A stretch of DNA of 64,000 nt. It comes from Polaribacter pectinis. GTDB lineage: Bacteria; Bacteroidota; Bacteroidia; Flavobacteriales; Flavobacteriaceae. The position numbers were made by a program, and so were the translations under genes. The stretch is from assembly GCF_014352875.1 (NCBI RefSeq), contig NZ_CP060695.1:148501-212500 (forward strand), read 5' to 3'. Positions 3,320 to 23,534 of the stretch are shown in pieces. Position 1 is the stretch's first letter, and each line of letters begins with the position of its first letter. Under the pieces are notes generated by a model, which saw only the letters and a program-made list of their open reading frames with translations, searched no databases and was not told the DNA's origin.

Positions 3320-3934
3320 CTAATGCTTCTCAAAAACTTTAATTCCGGCTTTTATTTCTACATCCAAATGATTTTTTCTTGGCGTAAGTGGACAGGAATA
3401 CTTGTCATTATAAGCACAGTAAGGATTGTAGGTGTTGTTGAAATTTAATTCAAACGTATTTTCTTCGGAAATATCTGTTATCATTACATCCATATAACGT
3501 CCTCCACCATAAGAATCTTCGCCAGAAGTATTGTCTGTAAAAGGTAAAAATAAGTAATCTTTATACTTTTCGTCTCGCAAATCATCTTGACTCTGGTAAA
3601 TAGTTAATTCTAAATCTTGACCTTTTAAAGTGAAGTTTAGTTTGCCATATTCTTTATACAAAGGTTTTCTGTCTGTGGTTGTTGCCATTTCAAAAGTTGG
3701 CGCATTTTCTGTTCGAGTCAATTTTGCAGTGACAATAAAAGTTGAATCTATAGGAAAGAAATCTAACCCTTTAAAATTCTTTAAATCTTTCTTTTTTAGT
3801 GGAGATTTAGATGCGTCTTTATAACTAGCATTCAATACTTGTTGATATTCAGTTTCACCAACCAAAGCTCTTTTACCTTGAGAATTACAAGAAATAATTA
3901 ATAATAAAGTAAATAATAGAACGAGTTTTTTCAT
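3320..3934 (-). CDS. DUF1684 family lipoprotein
   Basis: 204 residues with a type II signal peptide (lipobox LIISC, Cys16), so it is probably membrane-anchored. The C-terminal half has the recognisable DUF1684 pattern: a glycine-rich YGGGRYMDV stretch, FNNTYNPYCAYN, then SCPLTPRKNHLDVEIKAG near the end. DUF1684 has no established biochemical role that I know of. The gene follows a DUF4252 lipoprotein after only three bases, which suggests a two-gene operon. Confidence 0.85.
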   Translation of the reverse strand: MKKLVLLFTLLLIISCNSQGKRALVGETEYQQVLNASYKDASKSPLKKKDLKNFKGLDFFPIDSTFIVTAKLTRTENAPTFEMATTTDRKPLYKEYGKLNFTLKGQDLELTIYQSQDDLRDEKYKDYLFLPFTDNTSGEDSYGGGRYMDVMITDISEENTFELNFNNTYNPYCAYNDKYSCPLTPRKNHLDVEIKAGIKVFEKH

Positions 3935-3937
3935 CTT

Positions 3938-4471
3938 TTAATTTGGATTGAACCCTGGTGTTTTAGGAGTTGTTTGGTAATTATGAATTAGTTTAGTAGA
4001 TAAATCTTCAAATTGATTTGTTTCTGAAAGTTGTTTTAATTGATTCGGATCAAACCTTCCTTTTAGATAAATAACAGATGTTTTTGCTAATGTTGAATTA
4101 AAAATAATCGCTTGTGAAACGATATCTCCATTTTCTTTTACTGAAATAATTTTAGTTTTTTCTTCTGTATTTGTTCTTAATATATCTGTGAAATTTGAAT
4201 TTGTTACCAAATTCATTTCACCAATTAACTGCGATTGTTTTTCTTTAGAAATATCATTAAAAGTGATGACTTTAAAATCTCTAACATTCCCAAATAAATC
4301 ATTAATTTCTGGAGAAATATTGGTTAATAAGGCTCTCATAAAATTAGGGACTTGAAATGCAGTTACACCTAAATCGCTTTTATGGTCATTAAAAAAACTT
4401 TGAAAAGATTTTCCACTGCCACAAGAAAAAAGAAAAAGTGAAATACAAATTATGATGATATGTTTTTTCAT
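3938..4471 (-). CDS. DUF4252 family lipoprotein
   Basis: 177 residues. The N-terminus is a lipoprotein signal with lipobox LFSCGSG (Cys17). The rest fits DUF4252, a Bacteroidota-restricted lipoprotein family of unknown function: a helical FMRALLTNISPEINDLF region, a FKVITFN strand, and a central ENGDIVSQAIIF part. It is the first gene of the pair with the DUF1684 lipoprotein. The upstream intergenic region holds an unexplained terminator. Confidence 0.8.
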   Translation of the reverse strand: MKKHIIIICISLFLFSCGSGKSFQSFFNDHKSDLGVTAFQVPNFMRALLTNISPEINDLFGNVRDFKVITFNDISKEKQSQLIGEMNLVTNSNFTDILRTNTEEKTKIISVKENGDIVSQAIIFNSTLAKTSVIYLKGRFDPNQLKQLSETNQFEDLSTKLIHNYQTTPKTPGFNPN

Positions 4472-16460: not shown

Positions 16461-17006
16461 TTAATTACAAACTTTACAATCTGCTTTATCTTGAATTTCC
16501 CCAACTAAATTCCCTTCTTCATTCATTACAAAACCACAACAATCCATAAAACCTTGTGCGATTAATTTTCGTGCTCTTTGAATTTGAGATTTTGTAGTAG
16601 GTAAGGTTTGTTTTAATTGATCTGCAACTTCTTGTTGTTTCAAACCTTTTATGTCAGATAAAAATAAAGGAGTTCTATATTTCTTTGGAAGTGTGTTTAA
16701 AATACCACGTAAACAATCTTGTTCTGTGTGTTTGTTTTTATTGATTTCAGATTCAGTCTCTGTTTCTAAATCTGCTATTTCAAAAGTTTTGTTTGTTGAT
16801 TTCCAGTAATCTAATATTGAGTTTCGAGCAATAGTAAAACACCAAGATTTTAATTTACTATCATCTTTTAAGGTGTGCAATTTTGTGTGAATTTTCAAAA
16901 AAGTGTCTTGTAAAAGATCATCAGCAATGGTGATATTTTTCACTTTGCTGATGATGAATTTTTGTAAATCTAAATGATGTTTTGTCCAAACTTGGTTTGT
17001 GGTCAT
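16461..17006 (-). CDS. sigZ: RNA polymerase ECF-like sigma factor, SigZ type
   Basis: 181 residues. Sigma region 2 is at ~15-80 (DDLLQDTFLKIHTKL, then KLKSWCFTIARNSILDYWK). Region 4 is at ~105-155 (LPKKYRTPLFLSDIKGLKQ, then KSQIQRARKLI). The C-terminal tail is rich in cysteine: FMDCCGFVMNEEGNLVGEI (19 residues), then DKADCKVCN. Such a tail is typical of SigZ and could bind metal or sense redox state (inference). Just upstream on the same strand is a 35-residue metallothionein-like gene. No anti-sigma factor is adjacent. Confidence 0.9.
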   Translation of the reverse strand: MTTNQVWTKHHLDLQKFIISKVKNITIADDLLQDTFLKIHTKLHTLKDDSKLKSWCFTIARNSILDYWKSTNKTFEIADLETETESEINKNKHTEQDCLRGILNTLPKKYRTPLFLSDIKGLKQQEVADQLKQTLPTTKSQIQRARKLIAQGFMDCCGFVMNEEGNLVGEIQDKADCKVCN

Positions 17007-17022
17007 TCCTTATTTTTGTTTT

Positions 17023-17089
17023 TGTCACCTTGAGCGCAGTCGAAAGGTCTTTTTATTGTAAAGATTTTTCTACTCCGCTCGAAATGACA
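17023..17089. repeat. Flavobacterial REP-like palindrome (copy 2)
   Basis: The left arm TGTCACCTTGAGCG and right arm CGCTCGAAATGACA are imperfect inverted repeats. GGTC/GATTTTTC-type inner sequences resemble the inner stem of copy 1 at 3106-3189. The element fills most of the gap between the metallothionein-like gene and sigZ. Confidence 0.7.
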
Positions 17090-17095
17090 GAAATA

Positions 17096-17203
17096 TTAAC
17101 AATTACAATTACTACAAGTACAGTTTGTGCACGTACAATTTTTACATTCTCCAGTTTTGCAACCTTCACAGTTACAAGTACATTCATTTTTATAATTTTT
17201 CAT
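17096..17203 (-). CDS. 35-residue cysteine-rich metallothionein-like peptide
   Basis: A small gene with ATG at 17201-17203 and TAA at 17096-17098. Eleven of 35 residues are cysteine, at positions 8, 10, 12, 15, 20, 23, 25, 28, 30, 33 and 35. They make repeated CxC and CxxC patterns such as CTCNCEGC and CTCTNCTCSNCNC. There is no signal peptide, so it is probably cytoplasmic and should bind Zn, Cu or Cd thiolate clusters. It lies 89 bases upstream of sigZ on the same strand, with a REP palindrome between them. A short start-proximal AAATAAG precedes the ATG. I know of no exact named family; the coding call rests on the cysteine spacing and the location. Confidence 0.72.
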   Translation of the reverse strand: MKNYKNECTCNCEGCKTGECKNCTCTNCTCSNCNC

Positions 17204-17268
17204 CTTATTTAATTTTAATGTTCATATAGTAGACAAACAAATTTTGAAAAAGATGCAAAAAAATATAT

Positions 17269-20027: not shown

Positions 20028-23000
20028 TTACATGTTTCTCCTATATTGCCCACCAACTTTAAACAAAGCTTCAGTAATTTGCCCTAAAGAACAAACTTTG
20101 GTTGCTTCCATTAATTTGTCAAATAAGTTTTCATTTTGAATGGCCGCTTCTTGTAAAATTGCAATTTGTTCCACAACTTTATTCGGATTCGCTTTGTTCA
20201 ATAATTCTTTAGTCTGAATTTGAAACTGCTTTTCTTCTTCAGTAGCACGTATAACTTCTGCTGGCTGAACTGTTGGCGAACCTTTTGAGCTCAAAAATGT
20301 GTTTACTCCAATAATTGGAAATTTCCCATTATGTTTCAATGTTTCATAATACAAACTTTCTTCCTGAATTTTAGAACGTTGATACATCGTTTCCATCGCT
20401 CCTAAAACACCACCACGTTCTGTAATTCTATCAAACTCTAACAAGACAGCTTCTTCCACTAAATCCGTTAATTCTTCAATAATAAATGCACCTTGAATCG
20501 GGTTTTCGTTTTTCGTTAAACCTAATTCTTTATTGATGATTAATTGAATAGCCATCGCTCTTCTTACAGATTCTTCAGTTGGTGTTGTAATTGCTTCATC
20601 ATACGCATTTGTGTGTAAGGAATTACAATTATCGTTAATTGCATACAAAGCTTGAAGCGTTGTTCTAATATCATTAAAATCAATTTCTTGCGCGTGTAAA
20701 GAACGTCCAGAAGTTTGAATATGATACTTTAACATTTGTGCTCTTGAATTGGCTCCGTATTTATTTTTCATCGCTTTTGCCCAAATTTTACGAGCAACTC
20801 TACCAATTACAGAATATTCTGGGTCAATTCCGTTTGAAAAGAAAAAAGATAAGTTAGGTCCGAATTTATTAATATCCATTCCACGACTTAAATAATATTC
20901 TACGTAAGTAAATCCGTTTGATAATGTTAATGCCAATTGTGTAATTGGATTTGCGCCAGCTTCAGCAATATGATACCCAGAAATAGAAACCGAATAAAAG
21001 TTTCTAACTTGTTTTTCAATGAAATACTCTTGCACATCACCCATCAATCTTAATGCAAATTCTGTTGAGAAAATACACGTATTTTGTGCTTGGTCTTCCT
21101 TTAAAATATCTGCTTGTACTGTTCCTCTAACTTGCGCTAAAGTGTCTTTTTTTATTTTTTGATAAACTTCTGAAGGTAAAACCAAATCTCCAGTTAAACC
21201 TAAAAGCCTTAAACCTAAACCATTATTTCCTTCAGGTAATTTTCCTTGATAAACTGGTCTGTCTAAACCTTTAGATTCGTAAATTTCTTTAAATTTCGCT
21301 TCAACCTGTTTTTCTAATTTATTTTCGATGATGTATTTCTCACAATTCTGATCAATGGCAGCATTCATAAAGAAACCTAACAACATGGGTGCTGGGCCAT
21401 TTATGGTCATAGAAACAGAAGTCATATGATGACTTAAATCAAAACCAGAATACAATTTTTTAGCATCATCTAAACAACAAATTGAAACACCTGCGTTTCC
21501 AATTTTACCATAAATATCGGGTCTGTGTCCAGGATCGTTTCCATATAAAGTTACAGAGTCGAAAGCTGTGGAAAGACGTTTTGCGTCCATTCCTAAACTC
21601 ACATAATGGAACCTTCTATTGGTTCTTTCTGGGCCTCCTTCACCAGCAAACATTCTTGTTGGATCTTCTCCTGTTCTTTTAAATGGATACAATCCTGCAG
21701 TGAATGGGAATTCTCCAGGAACATTTTCTTGTAAATTCCAACGTAATAAATCTCCCCAAGCTTGGTATTTTGGTAGGGCAACTTTCGGAATTTGAGAATG
21801 AGAAAGTGACTCACTATGTGTTTCAATTTTTATCTCTTTATCACGAACTTTAAACGTATAAATAGGATCTTTATATTTCTGAACTTTTTCAGCCCAGTTT
21901 AAAATGATTTCCCAATTTAGTGGATCGAAATTCAGTTTTACTTTCTCAAATTGAGCCAATAATAATTTGATAAATTCTTTTTCTTCAGTAGCTGTTTTCT
22001 CTAAAATAGCATCTTCATTTAAACCTGTTTTAGTGATTTCAATAGAAGAATTTAGAATAGATTCTATCGTTTGATAAATTCCATATAATTTTTGAGCAAC
22101 TACAACTTGGTCGTTTACCTTCTTGTCATATGCTCTGTTGTTCTCTGCAATTTCAGACAAATAACGAACTCTGCTTGGTGGAATTACAAATATCTTTTCA
22201 GACATTTCTTTGGTAATTTCCATCGAAGATTTTAAATCGACATTTGTTTTTTCGACCAATTTATCCATAATACGTTTGTACAACGTATTCATTCCTGGAT
22301 CGTTAAATTGAGAAGCAATTGTGCCATAAACTGGCATATCGTCCATATGAACATCCCACAAATTATTGTTGCGCATGTATTGCTTTTTTACATCTCTAAC
22401 TGCATCTAAAGCACCACGCTTGTCGAACTTATTAATTGCCACTAAATCTGCAAAATCCAACATATCAATTTTTTCTAATTGTGTTGCAGCACCAAATTCT
22501 GGTGTCATTACATATAAAGAAGTATCTGAATGTTCTATGATTTCTGTGTCTGATTGTCCAATTCCAGAAGTTTCTAAAATTATTAAATCGAATTCTGCAG
22601 CTTTTAAAACCTGAATTGCTTCGTTTACATATTTAGACAAGGCAAGATTAGACTGACGAGTTGCCAAAGAACGCATATAAACACGCTTATTATTAATTGC
22701 ATTCATACGAATTCTGTCTCCTAAAAGTGCACCACCTGTTTTTCTTTTAGAAGGGTCTACAGAAATTAAACCGATTGTTTTTTCTGGGAAATCAATTAAA
22801 AAACGCCTAACCAATTCATCCACTAAAGAAGATTTTCCTGCTCCACCAGTTCCTGTGATTCCAAGAACGGGACAAGAAGAAGCCCCATCTAACTTCCCCA
22901 AAGGGGAAGAACTCCAATCTTTTTGAAAAATCTTTTCGAAATCTGTATGATTATTTTCGGCTAAAGAAATTAGACGAGCTATTGTATTTACATTTTTATT

Positions 23001-23534
23001 TTTTAAATTTTCTAAAACCTTTTCATTTCCCAGTTCTAACAACCAATCTCCATCTTCATTACAAACTTTGCCAGCAGAGTGTTTCCCTCCTTTGGAGGGA
23101 TTAAGGGAGGCTTTCACCAAATCATTTATCATTCCTTGTAAACCTAACTCACGTCCATCATCTGGAGAATAAATTCTGGTAATTCCATAATCCATTAATT
23201 CCTTAATTTCTTCAGGAAGAATTACGCCTCCTCCACCACCAAAAATTTTGATATGAGTTGCACCTCTTTCTTGCAATAAATCGAACATGTATTTAAAATA
23301 CTCATTATGTCCTCCTTGATAAGAAGTAATCGCAATCGCATTTGCATCTTCTTGAATGGCGCAATTCACCACTTCTTCAACGCTTCTGTCATGACCTAAA
23401 TGAATCACTTCAACTCCAGTAGATTGTATAATTCTACGCATAATATTAATTGCGGCATCATGTCCGTCAAATAATGCTGCTGCAGTTACAATTCTTACTT
23501 TATGTGTAGGTTTATATGGTTTTATTTGCTCCAT
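20028..23534 (-). CDS. icmF: IcmF-type fused B12-dependent acyl-CoA mutase (isobutyryl-CoA mutase family)
   Basis: 1168 residues in three parts. The B12-binding domain is at ~1-135 ([15 protein letters not shown] holds the cobalt-ligand His; [12 protein letters not shown]). The MeaB/ArgK-like G-protein chaperone is at ~224-480 (P-loop [35 protein letters not shown]). The mutase domain is from ~570 ([37 protein letters not shown]-type barrel repeats). YPF and the lack of methylmalonyl-mutase arginines argue for isobutyryl- or related substrates over methylmalonyl-CoA. The linker between the first two domains carries two in-frame palindromic inserts (23080-23115, 22883-22915), which partly explain the extra length over the ~1090 residues I recall for other IcmF proteins. 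No B12 riboswitch was seen upstream. Confidence 0.92.
22883..22915 (-). repeat. Palindromic repeat inserted in frame in icmF (element 2)
   Basis: CTTCCCCAAAGGGGAAG is a perfect 7-bp-arm hairpin with an AAA loop, flanked by CCCCATCTAA. On the icmF strand it encodes [10 protein letters not shown] (~206-217), just before the G-domain P-loop. It resembles short repeats common between genes in Flavobacteriaceae. Confidence 0.65.
23080..23115 (-). repeat. Palindromic repeat inserted in frame in icmF (element 1)
   Basis: TCCCTCCTTTGGAGGGA (23084-23100) is a perfect 7-bp hairpin with loop TTT, with TTAAGGGAGG on one side. On the icmF strand it encodes [12 protein letters not shown] (~140-152) in the linker after the B12 domain. 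It is a different element from the one at 22883-22915 but has the same design. Confidence 0.65.

Follow-up and report, generated by a model that had tools for sequence, protein, structure and literature searches.

Genome comparison shows that the gene for a 35-residue, cysteine-rich peptide is co-inherited with, and adjacent to, the ECF sigma factor gene sigZ, and that a conserved ECF-type promoter stands before the peptide gene, tracks sigZ and also precedes metal-efflux genes. Judging from these patterns, we consider it probable that SigZ is a sigma factor that responds to metal by means of a built-in Cys sensor; it would drive its own metallothionein-led operon together with efflux genes and would be subject to feedback by the peptide. 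The window, i.e., the whole 64-kb stretch of DNA that was analysed, contains the features summarized in Table 1. The promoter is new here and goes beyond an earlier note on this DNA, from which the analysis started.

Table 1. Features of the peptide-sigZ region, in the coordinates of the window
Feature	Position	Strand	Basis
ECF-type promoter TGCATCTTTTTCAAAATTTGTTTGTCTA, proposed SigZ promoter	17230..17257	minus	conserved in upstream regions
Gene of 35-aa metallothionein-like Cys-rich peptide (11 Cys)	17096..17203	minus	ORF; first gene of predicted operon
Intergenic stem-loop; may terminate transcription in part or stabilise mRNA	17023..17089	minus	fold energy
sigZ, 181-aa ECF sigma factor (sigma2, sigma4; Cys98 before sigma4; C-terminal CC...CxxC)	16461..17006	minus	Pfam, NCBIfam
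Codons of SigZ Cys tail, C156 + C157 to C177 + C180; proposed on-board metal sensor	16467..16541	minus	Cys conservation

The earlier note had described a 35-residue, 11-Cys metallothionein-like gene located 89 bases upstream of sigZ on the same strand. The ORF was confirmed: both genes lie on the minus strand, separated by a gap of 89 nt, and the translation of the ORF is MKNYKNECTCNCEGCKTGECKNCTCTNCTCSNCNC, with 11 Cys in 35 residues and no His. The plus strand of the same interval reads LTITITT... By a loose Cys-rich criterion, which also picked up four ORFs, apparently spurious, in control loci totalling 150 kb, it is the sole ORF of its kind in the window, and none of 200 mononucleotide shuffles of the window reproduced its exact Cys spacing. 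Of 140 sigZ-linked loci, 138 have precisely this arrangement of 11 Cys (29/30, 30/30, and 79/80 in three sets that overlap in some genomes). TGT and TGC are both used at every Cys column, with TGC in 17-48 of 119 distinct 28-codon cores; the 138 loci behind this analysis were chosen by a pattern requiring 11 Cys, and the result describes codon use, not Cys invariance. The conservation of the spacing with both Cys codons in use rules out a chance ORF, and on this comparative evidence the ORF is a real gene. A rare exception is found in L127, where the last Cys of the peptide is replaced by Leu.

Small size, high Cys content, CxC/CxxC arrays, and a link to metal-handling genes make the product a candidate metallothionein in the functional sense, and its best reading is that of a metallothionein-like, putative metal binder. 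SmtA/BmtA, MymT, and short fungal metallothioneins are very small, consist of Cys to about one third, and contain CxC/CxxC repeats; the peptide resembles them in these respects, and no curated profile matched it. Searches of Pfam and NCBIfam with the peptide gave no family at E ≤ 1, the profile of its family found no PDB chain at E ≤ 1, and 0 of 7 related or analogous peptides matched Pfam. A known metallothionein family was rejected because of the missing Pfam, NCBIfam, and PDB matches. A profile of 11 natural ORFs found two proteins at E ≤ 1e-3 among 109 candidates that had passed the word filter limiting this search of a 5.8-billion-protein database; with the single sequence as query, the filter left no candidate. 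This supports the view that the gene is nearly absent from predicted protein sets, as the earlier note had anticipated for a gene short enough to be missed by automatic annotation.

Among 97 genomes of relatives, 41 possess a SigZ ortholog at E ≤ 1e-72, and the next match has an E-value of 5e-29, one partial second match in G003 aside. The latter (G003:C22:9355-9579) covers residues 107-181 with 80% identity; the complete gene lies ~1 kb upstream of it. The peptide was detected in 41 of the 97 genomes with a profile built from 21 peptides, and these are the same 41; the remaining 56 of 56 have neither. All 41 belong to the same-genus group (41/58) and the peptide adjoins sigZ by coordinates in each. 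Seventeen genomes of this group have neither sigZ nor the peptide; completeness reaches 90% or more in 9 of them and falls short of it in 8. When 397 genomes of the family were sampled, a sigZ-tail match was observed in 52 at E ≤ 1e-23 and in 87 at 1e-12; the peptide is present in 51 of the 52 (in one of these, G143, peptide and sigma factor are on separate contigs) versus 16 of the 345 others. Since same-genus loci had supplied the sequences for the peptide and tail profiles (A1 and A2, respectively), hits within that genus are partly by construction, but absences are not. In named records, which include Polaribacter, Tenacibaculum, Winogradskyella, Lutibacter, Lacinutrix, one Flavobacterium MAG, and other Flavobacteriaceae, 124 loci were confirmed, and in 80 of the 80 that were kept the peptide gene is upstream of sigZ on the same strand, at a distance of 2-130 nt (702 nt in one). 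Some genomes are shared among the 97-genome, 397-genome, and named sets, and Fisher tests were given no weight, as they disregard relatedness. The expectation that the ORF would be kept beside sigZ in other Flavobacteriaceae was thus borne out, both in adjacency (80/80) and in exact spacing (138/140).

A 1168-aa gene on the minus strand (20028-23534), possibly mutase-like, is located ~3 kb upstream of sigZ in the window. A similar gene is present at a comparable distance in 36 of the 80 named loci, which indicates an ancient location of the operon in part of the group. In L194 (G283:C3, about 3545-4310) the promoter is present and the peptide and sigZ frames are both broken; the pair seems to be decaying together.

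The gap between the two genes has a predicted fold of -28 kcal/mol in the window, with a z of -6.25 relative to 200 dinucleotide shuffles; of 106 gaps measuring 40-150 nt, 98 have a z below -3 relative to mononucleotide shuffles. A comparison of 14 gaps revealed different stems in different lineages. Some loci have a palindromic, repeat-like hairpin and others an unrelated stem (window 17007-17095; L040, L069, L082); structure is kept, sequence is not. The gap measures 2-3 nt in 8 of 122 loci. A partial terminator that holds the sigma factor below the peptide is our guess for its function.

The boxes TGCATC and GTCTA were found in 120 of 122 distinct regions upstream of the peptide, each time with a 17-nt spacer, in a scan that allowed at most one mismatch per box and spacers of 14-18; the exceptions are L101 and L119. 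The middle of the spacer is variable. GTC at -10 and TGnAnC at -35 constitute an ECF-like consensus. The strict pattern, TGCATCTTTT-N13-GTCTA, is present in 36 of the 41 genomes with sigZ (there is no exact match in G003, G021, G025, G040, and G055) versus 1 of the 56 without, and a reversed-pattern control gave one site across all 97 genomes. A promoter of the strict type was found at 0 of 16 loci with the peptide and without sigZ. PMC9723704 describes a CGT box at -10 as ECF-like. We infer that SigZ itself reads this promoter. The genome of the window contains two strict sites, one of them inside an ORF, and a relaxed scan of it gave 8 sites (six with one mismatch) versus 6 for the control; with the relaxed sites near the control level, the regulon supported for this genome consists of the operon.

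Sorting by coordinates and by reading the loci assigned the 53 strict sites of the 97 genomes to the peptide (36), DUF3703 (6), CDF (6), a P-type ATPase (1), a CusA/CzcA pump (1), a TonB receptor (1), and the interior of ORFs (2). The CDF genes encode His-rich cation-efflux proteins (PF01545, TIGR01297). The P-type ATPase is a His-rich, heavy-metal enzyme that scores 502 bits with TIGR01512 (cut-off 313.5) and 378.5 bits with the copper model TIGR01511, below the cut-off of 397, and the RND pump of the CusA/CzcA family scores 716.5 bits with TIGR00914 (cut-off 701.45). The two sites within ORFs are the second site of G000 and that of G088, the sole site in a genome without sigZ. The occurrence of the promoter before the ATPase and CusA/CzcA genes and the intra-ORF position of the only site in a sigZ-less genome make the metal reading slightly likelier. 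Of the metal or redox sensing that the earlier note had proposed for the pair, the metal theme gains from the genes that the promoter precedes, namely CDF, P-type ATPase, and CusA/CzcA.

Close CDF orthologs are present in 18 of the 41 genomes with sigZ and in one sigZ-less genome, G053. In 16 of the 18, a site that deviates at 0-2 of its 15 positions begins 39-81 bp ahead of the start codon; six of these sites are exact ones counted above (four of which had led to CDF) and ten are additional. The orthologs of G032 and G057 have no site (best 4 and 5 mismatches, respectively), nor does that of G053 (best 6 mismatches). The DUF3703 genes behind the six strict sites adjoin the peptide gene. In 21 of the 41 genomes with sigZ, DUF3703 immediately precedes the peptide gene, and its cluster occurs at 30 of the 80 named loci (one cluster member checked); neither DUF3703 nor a close CDF ortholog was found in the genome of the window. 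Elsewhere, seven loci inspected by eye (L230, L231, L233, L234, L235, L238, and L239) have a DUF3703 copy in the vicinity of a FUR-like regulator and a His-rich heavy-metal P-type ATPase, and both neighbours were confirmed in L234 (Pfam, NCBIfam). DUF3703 is probably a metal-stress protein; a literature search found no paper on it.

SigZ belongs to the ECF sigma factors of the sigma-70 family, with sigma2 and sigma4 domains (PF04542 and PF08281, both above the Pfam cut-off) and 71 bits with TIGR02937 of NCBIfam (cut-off 42.9). The SigZ of Bacillus subtilis is presumably an orphan ECF sigma factor; its models are the best NCBIfam match over 163-180 residues, yet the scores are below both cut-offs (158.5 bits versus 168.65 for TIGR02959, 171.8 versus 212 for NF007215). 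The name sigZ thus designates the nearest family only, since both equivalog cut-offs are missed. The C-terminus is DCCGFVMNEEGNLVGEIQDKADCKVCN. The Cys-rich tail mentioned in the earlier note proved to be a conserved feature: CC...CxxC is present in 135 of 136 parsed SigZ ORFs and in 118 of 119 distinct ones, and the printed tails of the four loci (of 140) that escaped script parsing display it too. The sole exception is L125, where SigZ stops before the last tail Cys. Of 136 ORFs, 130 matched at the linker Cys and the remaining six show DCL as well; a linker CxC occurs in 0 of 136, a single Cys (DCL) being present instead. An AlphaFold model of SigZ has a mean pLDDT of 74.7 and a pTM of 0.43, with low confidence for the tail (61-67 in the last blocks).

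CorE and CorE2 of Myxococcus xanthus (former ECF44) are described, in the available parts of PMC8999054 and PMC9023288, as having a Cys-rich C-terminal extension and acting on metal-resistance genes with no anti-sigma factor; partial autoregulation of the CorE system is stated in the excerpt of PMC3107203. SigZ agrees with these excerpts in being an ECF sigma factor with a Cys-rich C-terminal extension, no conserved neighbouring anti-sigma gene found, and putative metal-resistance targets. The tails differ, with CC-X19-C-X2-C in SigZ, C-X4-C-X2-C-X1-C in CorE, and CC-X3-C-X2-C-X1-C in CorE2 (PMC9023288, in part). The linker CxC, essential in CorE according to the accessible text, is missing from SigZ, as it is from most ECF238 members (PMC8999054, in part); on these sources, its absence bars SigZ from former ECF44, but not from ECF238. 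Membership in the CorE-like group was rejected because the linker CxC is lacking and the Cys-rich extension has another spacing. The operon predicted here is led by a metallothionein-like gene, unlike that of CorE. OrbS of Burkholderia cenocepacia is an on-board Fe(II) sensor with a C-X2-C-X3-C-X5-C cluster and a siderophore regulon, and is inhibited by Fe(II) (available section of PMC9023288). SigZ is comparable, as far as that section goes, in bearing a four-Cys C-terminal cluster in an ECF sigma factor with no conserved anti-sigma gene found beside it. This is in contrast to the differing spacing of the clusters and to the regulons, that of OrbS consisting of siderophore genes whereas the promoter here fronts metal-efflux genes. 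By analogy with these partial accounts, the mechanism of SigZ would most likely resemble that of CorE, CorE2, or OrbS. No description of a SigZ-metallothionein operon was found in the literature searched, which consisted partly of excerpts and had subscription journals mostly outside it.

In the mechanism that we propose, the peptide gene would head an operon that also contains sigZ. Excess thiophilic metal would load the conserved Cys tail of SigZ, and the metal-loaded SigZ would read TGCATCTTTT-N13-GTCTA and transcribe its own operon and, in relatives, also DUF3703, CDF, P-type ATPase, and CusA/CzcA genes. The peptide would chelate the metal, the signal would fall, and SigZ would be turned off in a negative-feedback loop, with the intergenic hairpin possibly keeping the sigma level below that of the peptide. 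We infer that the tail binds metal, that binding activates, and that the feedback and the hairpin act in this manner. Zn or Cd is favoured as the sensed metal and Cu is less likely, because CDF and the Cd-type ATPase carry the promoter.

Control of the operon by something other than the tail is unlikely, but deserves serious weight. The peptide would again be a metal-binding output. SigZ would answer to an anti-sigma factor encoded elsewhere, or a metalloregulator would govern transcription of the operon, and the role of the tail would be structural or redox-related. Anti-sigma factors may be encoded away from their sigma factors, zinc sites may serve structure, and OrbS is inhibited, not activated, by its metal in the accessible part of PMC9023288, so that the sign could be either. 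These points are countered by the tail Cys pairs, conserved in 135 of 136 ORFs, though their spacing varies in distant SigZ-type proteins, and by the neighbourhood, in which sigZ is the only gene common to all 80 named loci (ORFs of at least 70 aa within 3 kb on each side, less at contig ends). A conserved neighbouring anti-sigma gene was rejected on the latter ground.

The peptide also occurs without sigZ. Sixteen family genomes have a peptide match and no sigZ-tail match at 1e-12; 10 of the 16 are at most 2.1 Mb, and several are incomplete, so that some sigZ absences may be gaps. The exact spacing is kept in 10 of the 16, the others being short of some Cys, and one match has an internal stop. 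The peptide adjoins a CDF gene and a metallo-beta-lactamase-fold gene in L179 and L181, and a carbonic anhydrase gene in L183. Carbonic anhydrase/SulP-like neighbours in small genomes without sigZ were seen in L183 and, by eye, in L186. These occurrences favour a metal-binding product in its own right.

More distant SigZ-type loci were taken as the best 30 matches to the SigZ model from 198 Bacteroidota genomes, and 26 of these lack this type of peptide (two of the 26, L277 and L287, are still in the family). Another Cys-rich small ORF stands beside the sigma gene in 9 of the 26 and none within about 1.5 kb in 17. The peptides of the nine (L265, L266, L267, L273, L274, L281, L282, L283, and L287) differ and are non-alignable, and those of differing lineages are upstream or downstream of the sigma gene. 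A perfect TG[CT][AG]TC-N16/17-GTCT is found upstream in 9 of the 26, and 0-3 of 200 shuffles were as good; 7 of these nine loci carry a Cys-rich peptide, and the other two peptide loci have a variant site. At least three Cys are present in the last 45 residues of 23 of the 26 distant proteins, with differing tail spacing. In outline the module seems to be phylum-wide, with unlike peptides and in a minority of these loci.

These two comparisons bear on the suggestion that the peptide is the dedicated regulator of SigZ, i.e., a small thiolate anti-sigma factor or co-sensor that would bind SigZ, or strip it, and release it on metal or oxidant, and is not mainly for detoxification. Strict co-inheritance and adjacency of two Cys-rich proteins would be expected of it, as a co-transcribed small inhibitor would look alike, and the incomplete peptide-only genomes soften the argument from missing sigZ. 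It is nevertheless improbable, in view of the 16 genomes with the peptide and no sigZ-tail match (10 with exact spacing), the CDF gene next to two of these peptides, the SigZ-type genes elsewhere with unlike Cys-rich peptides or none nearby (17/26), and the promoter that groups the peptide with efflux genes. The earlier note had named the peptide as sensor, buffer, or target. Target and buffer are favoured because the peptide and metal-efflux genes have a common promoter, whereas the sensor is disfavoured as the main role by the 16 genomes; release or quenching of SigZ, also proposed there, becomes less likely as the main role since the peptide is found without sigZ too.

The reading of the promoter by another ECF sigma factor, with sigZ as a co-regulated passenger, is decidedly improbable. 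In its favour, 18 matches to SigZ at E ≤ 1e-3 are present in the genome of the window, ECF promoters are similar to each other, and one ECF motif may serve several sigma factors in Flavobacterium psychrophilum (PMC9723704, in part). Against this, the promoter tracks sigZ (36/41 versus 1/56), though some ECF match exists in 93 of the 97 relatives' genomes, and a related site lies directly before the sigma gene in six distant loci where sigZ comes first (L265, L266, L267, L271, L274, and L279). A functionless chance or low-complexity ORF, to which its shortness and the mere two matches in the predicted-protein profile search might point, can practically be dismissed given the co-inheritance, the 80/80 adjacency, the exact spacing, and the use of both Cys codons.

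The preferred reading, a metal-responsive SigZ with a metallothionein-led operon, may extend beyond the family. We see an even chance that the SigZ types of Bacteroidota form an unassigned class of anti-sigma-free metal sensors with TG[CT][AG]TC-N16/17-GTCT promoters, in which the Cys tail would sense metal and an unannotated, fast-diversifying metallothionein, as a common output, would act as the chelator that strips metal from the sigma factor and so closes the loop.

An orphan sigma-factor family gains a testable function, promoter, and regulon, and a metallothionein-like family nearly absent from predicted protein sets is added. If the tail is the sensor, it would add to those of CorE and OrbS another Cys architecture for reading metal without an anti-sigma factor, and the chelator in the same operon would provide negative feedback. 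The findings hint at how common marine flavobacteria may meet metal stress.
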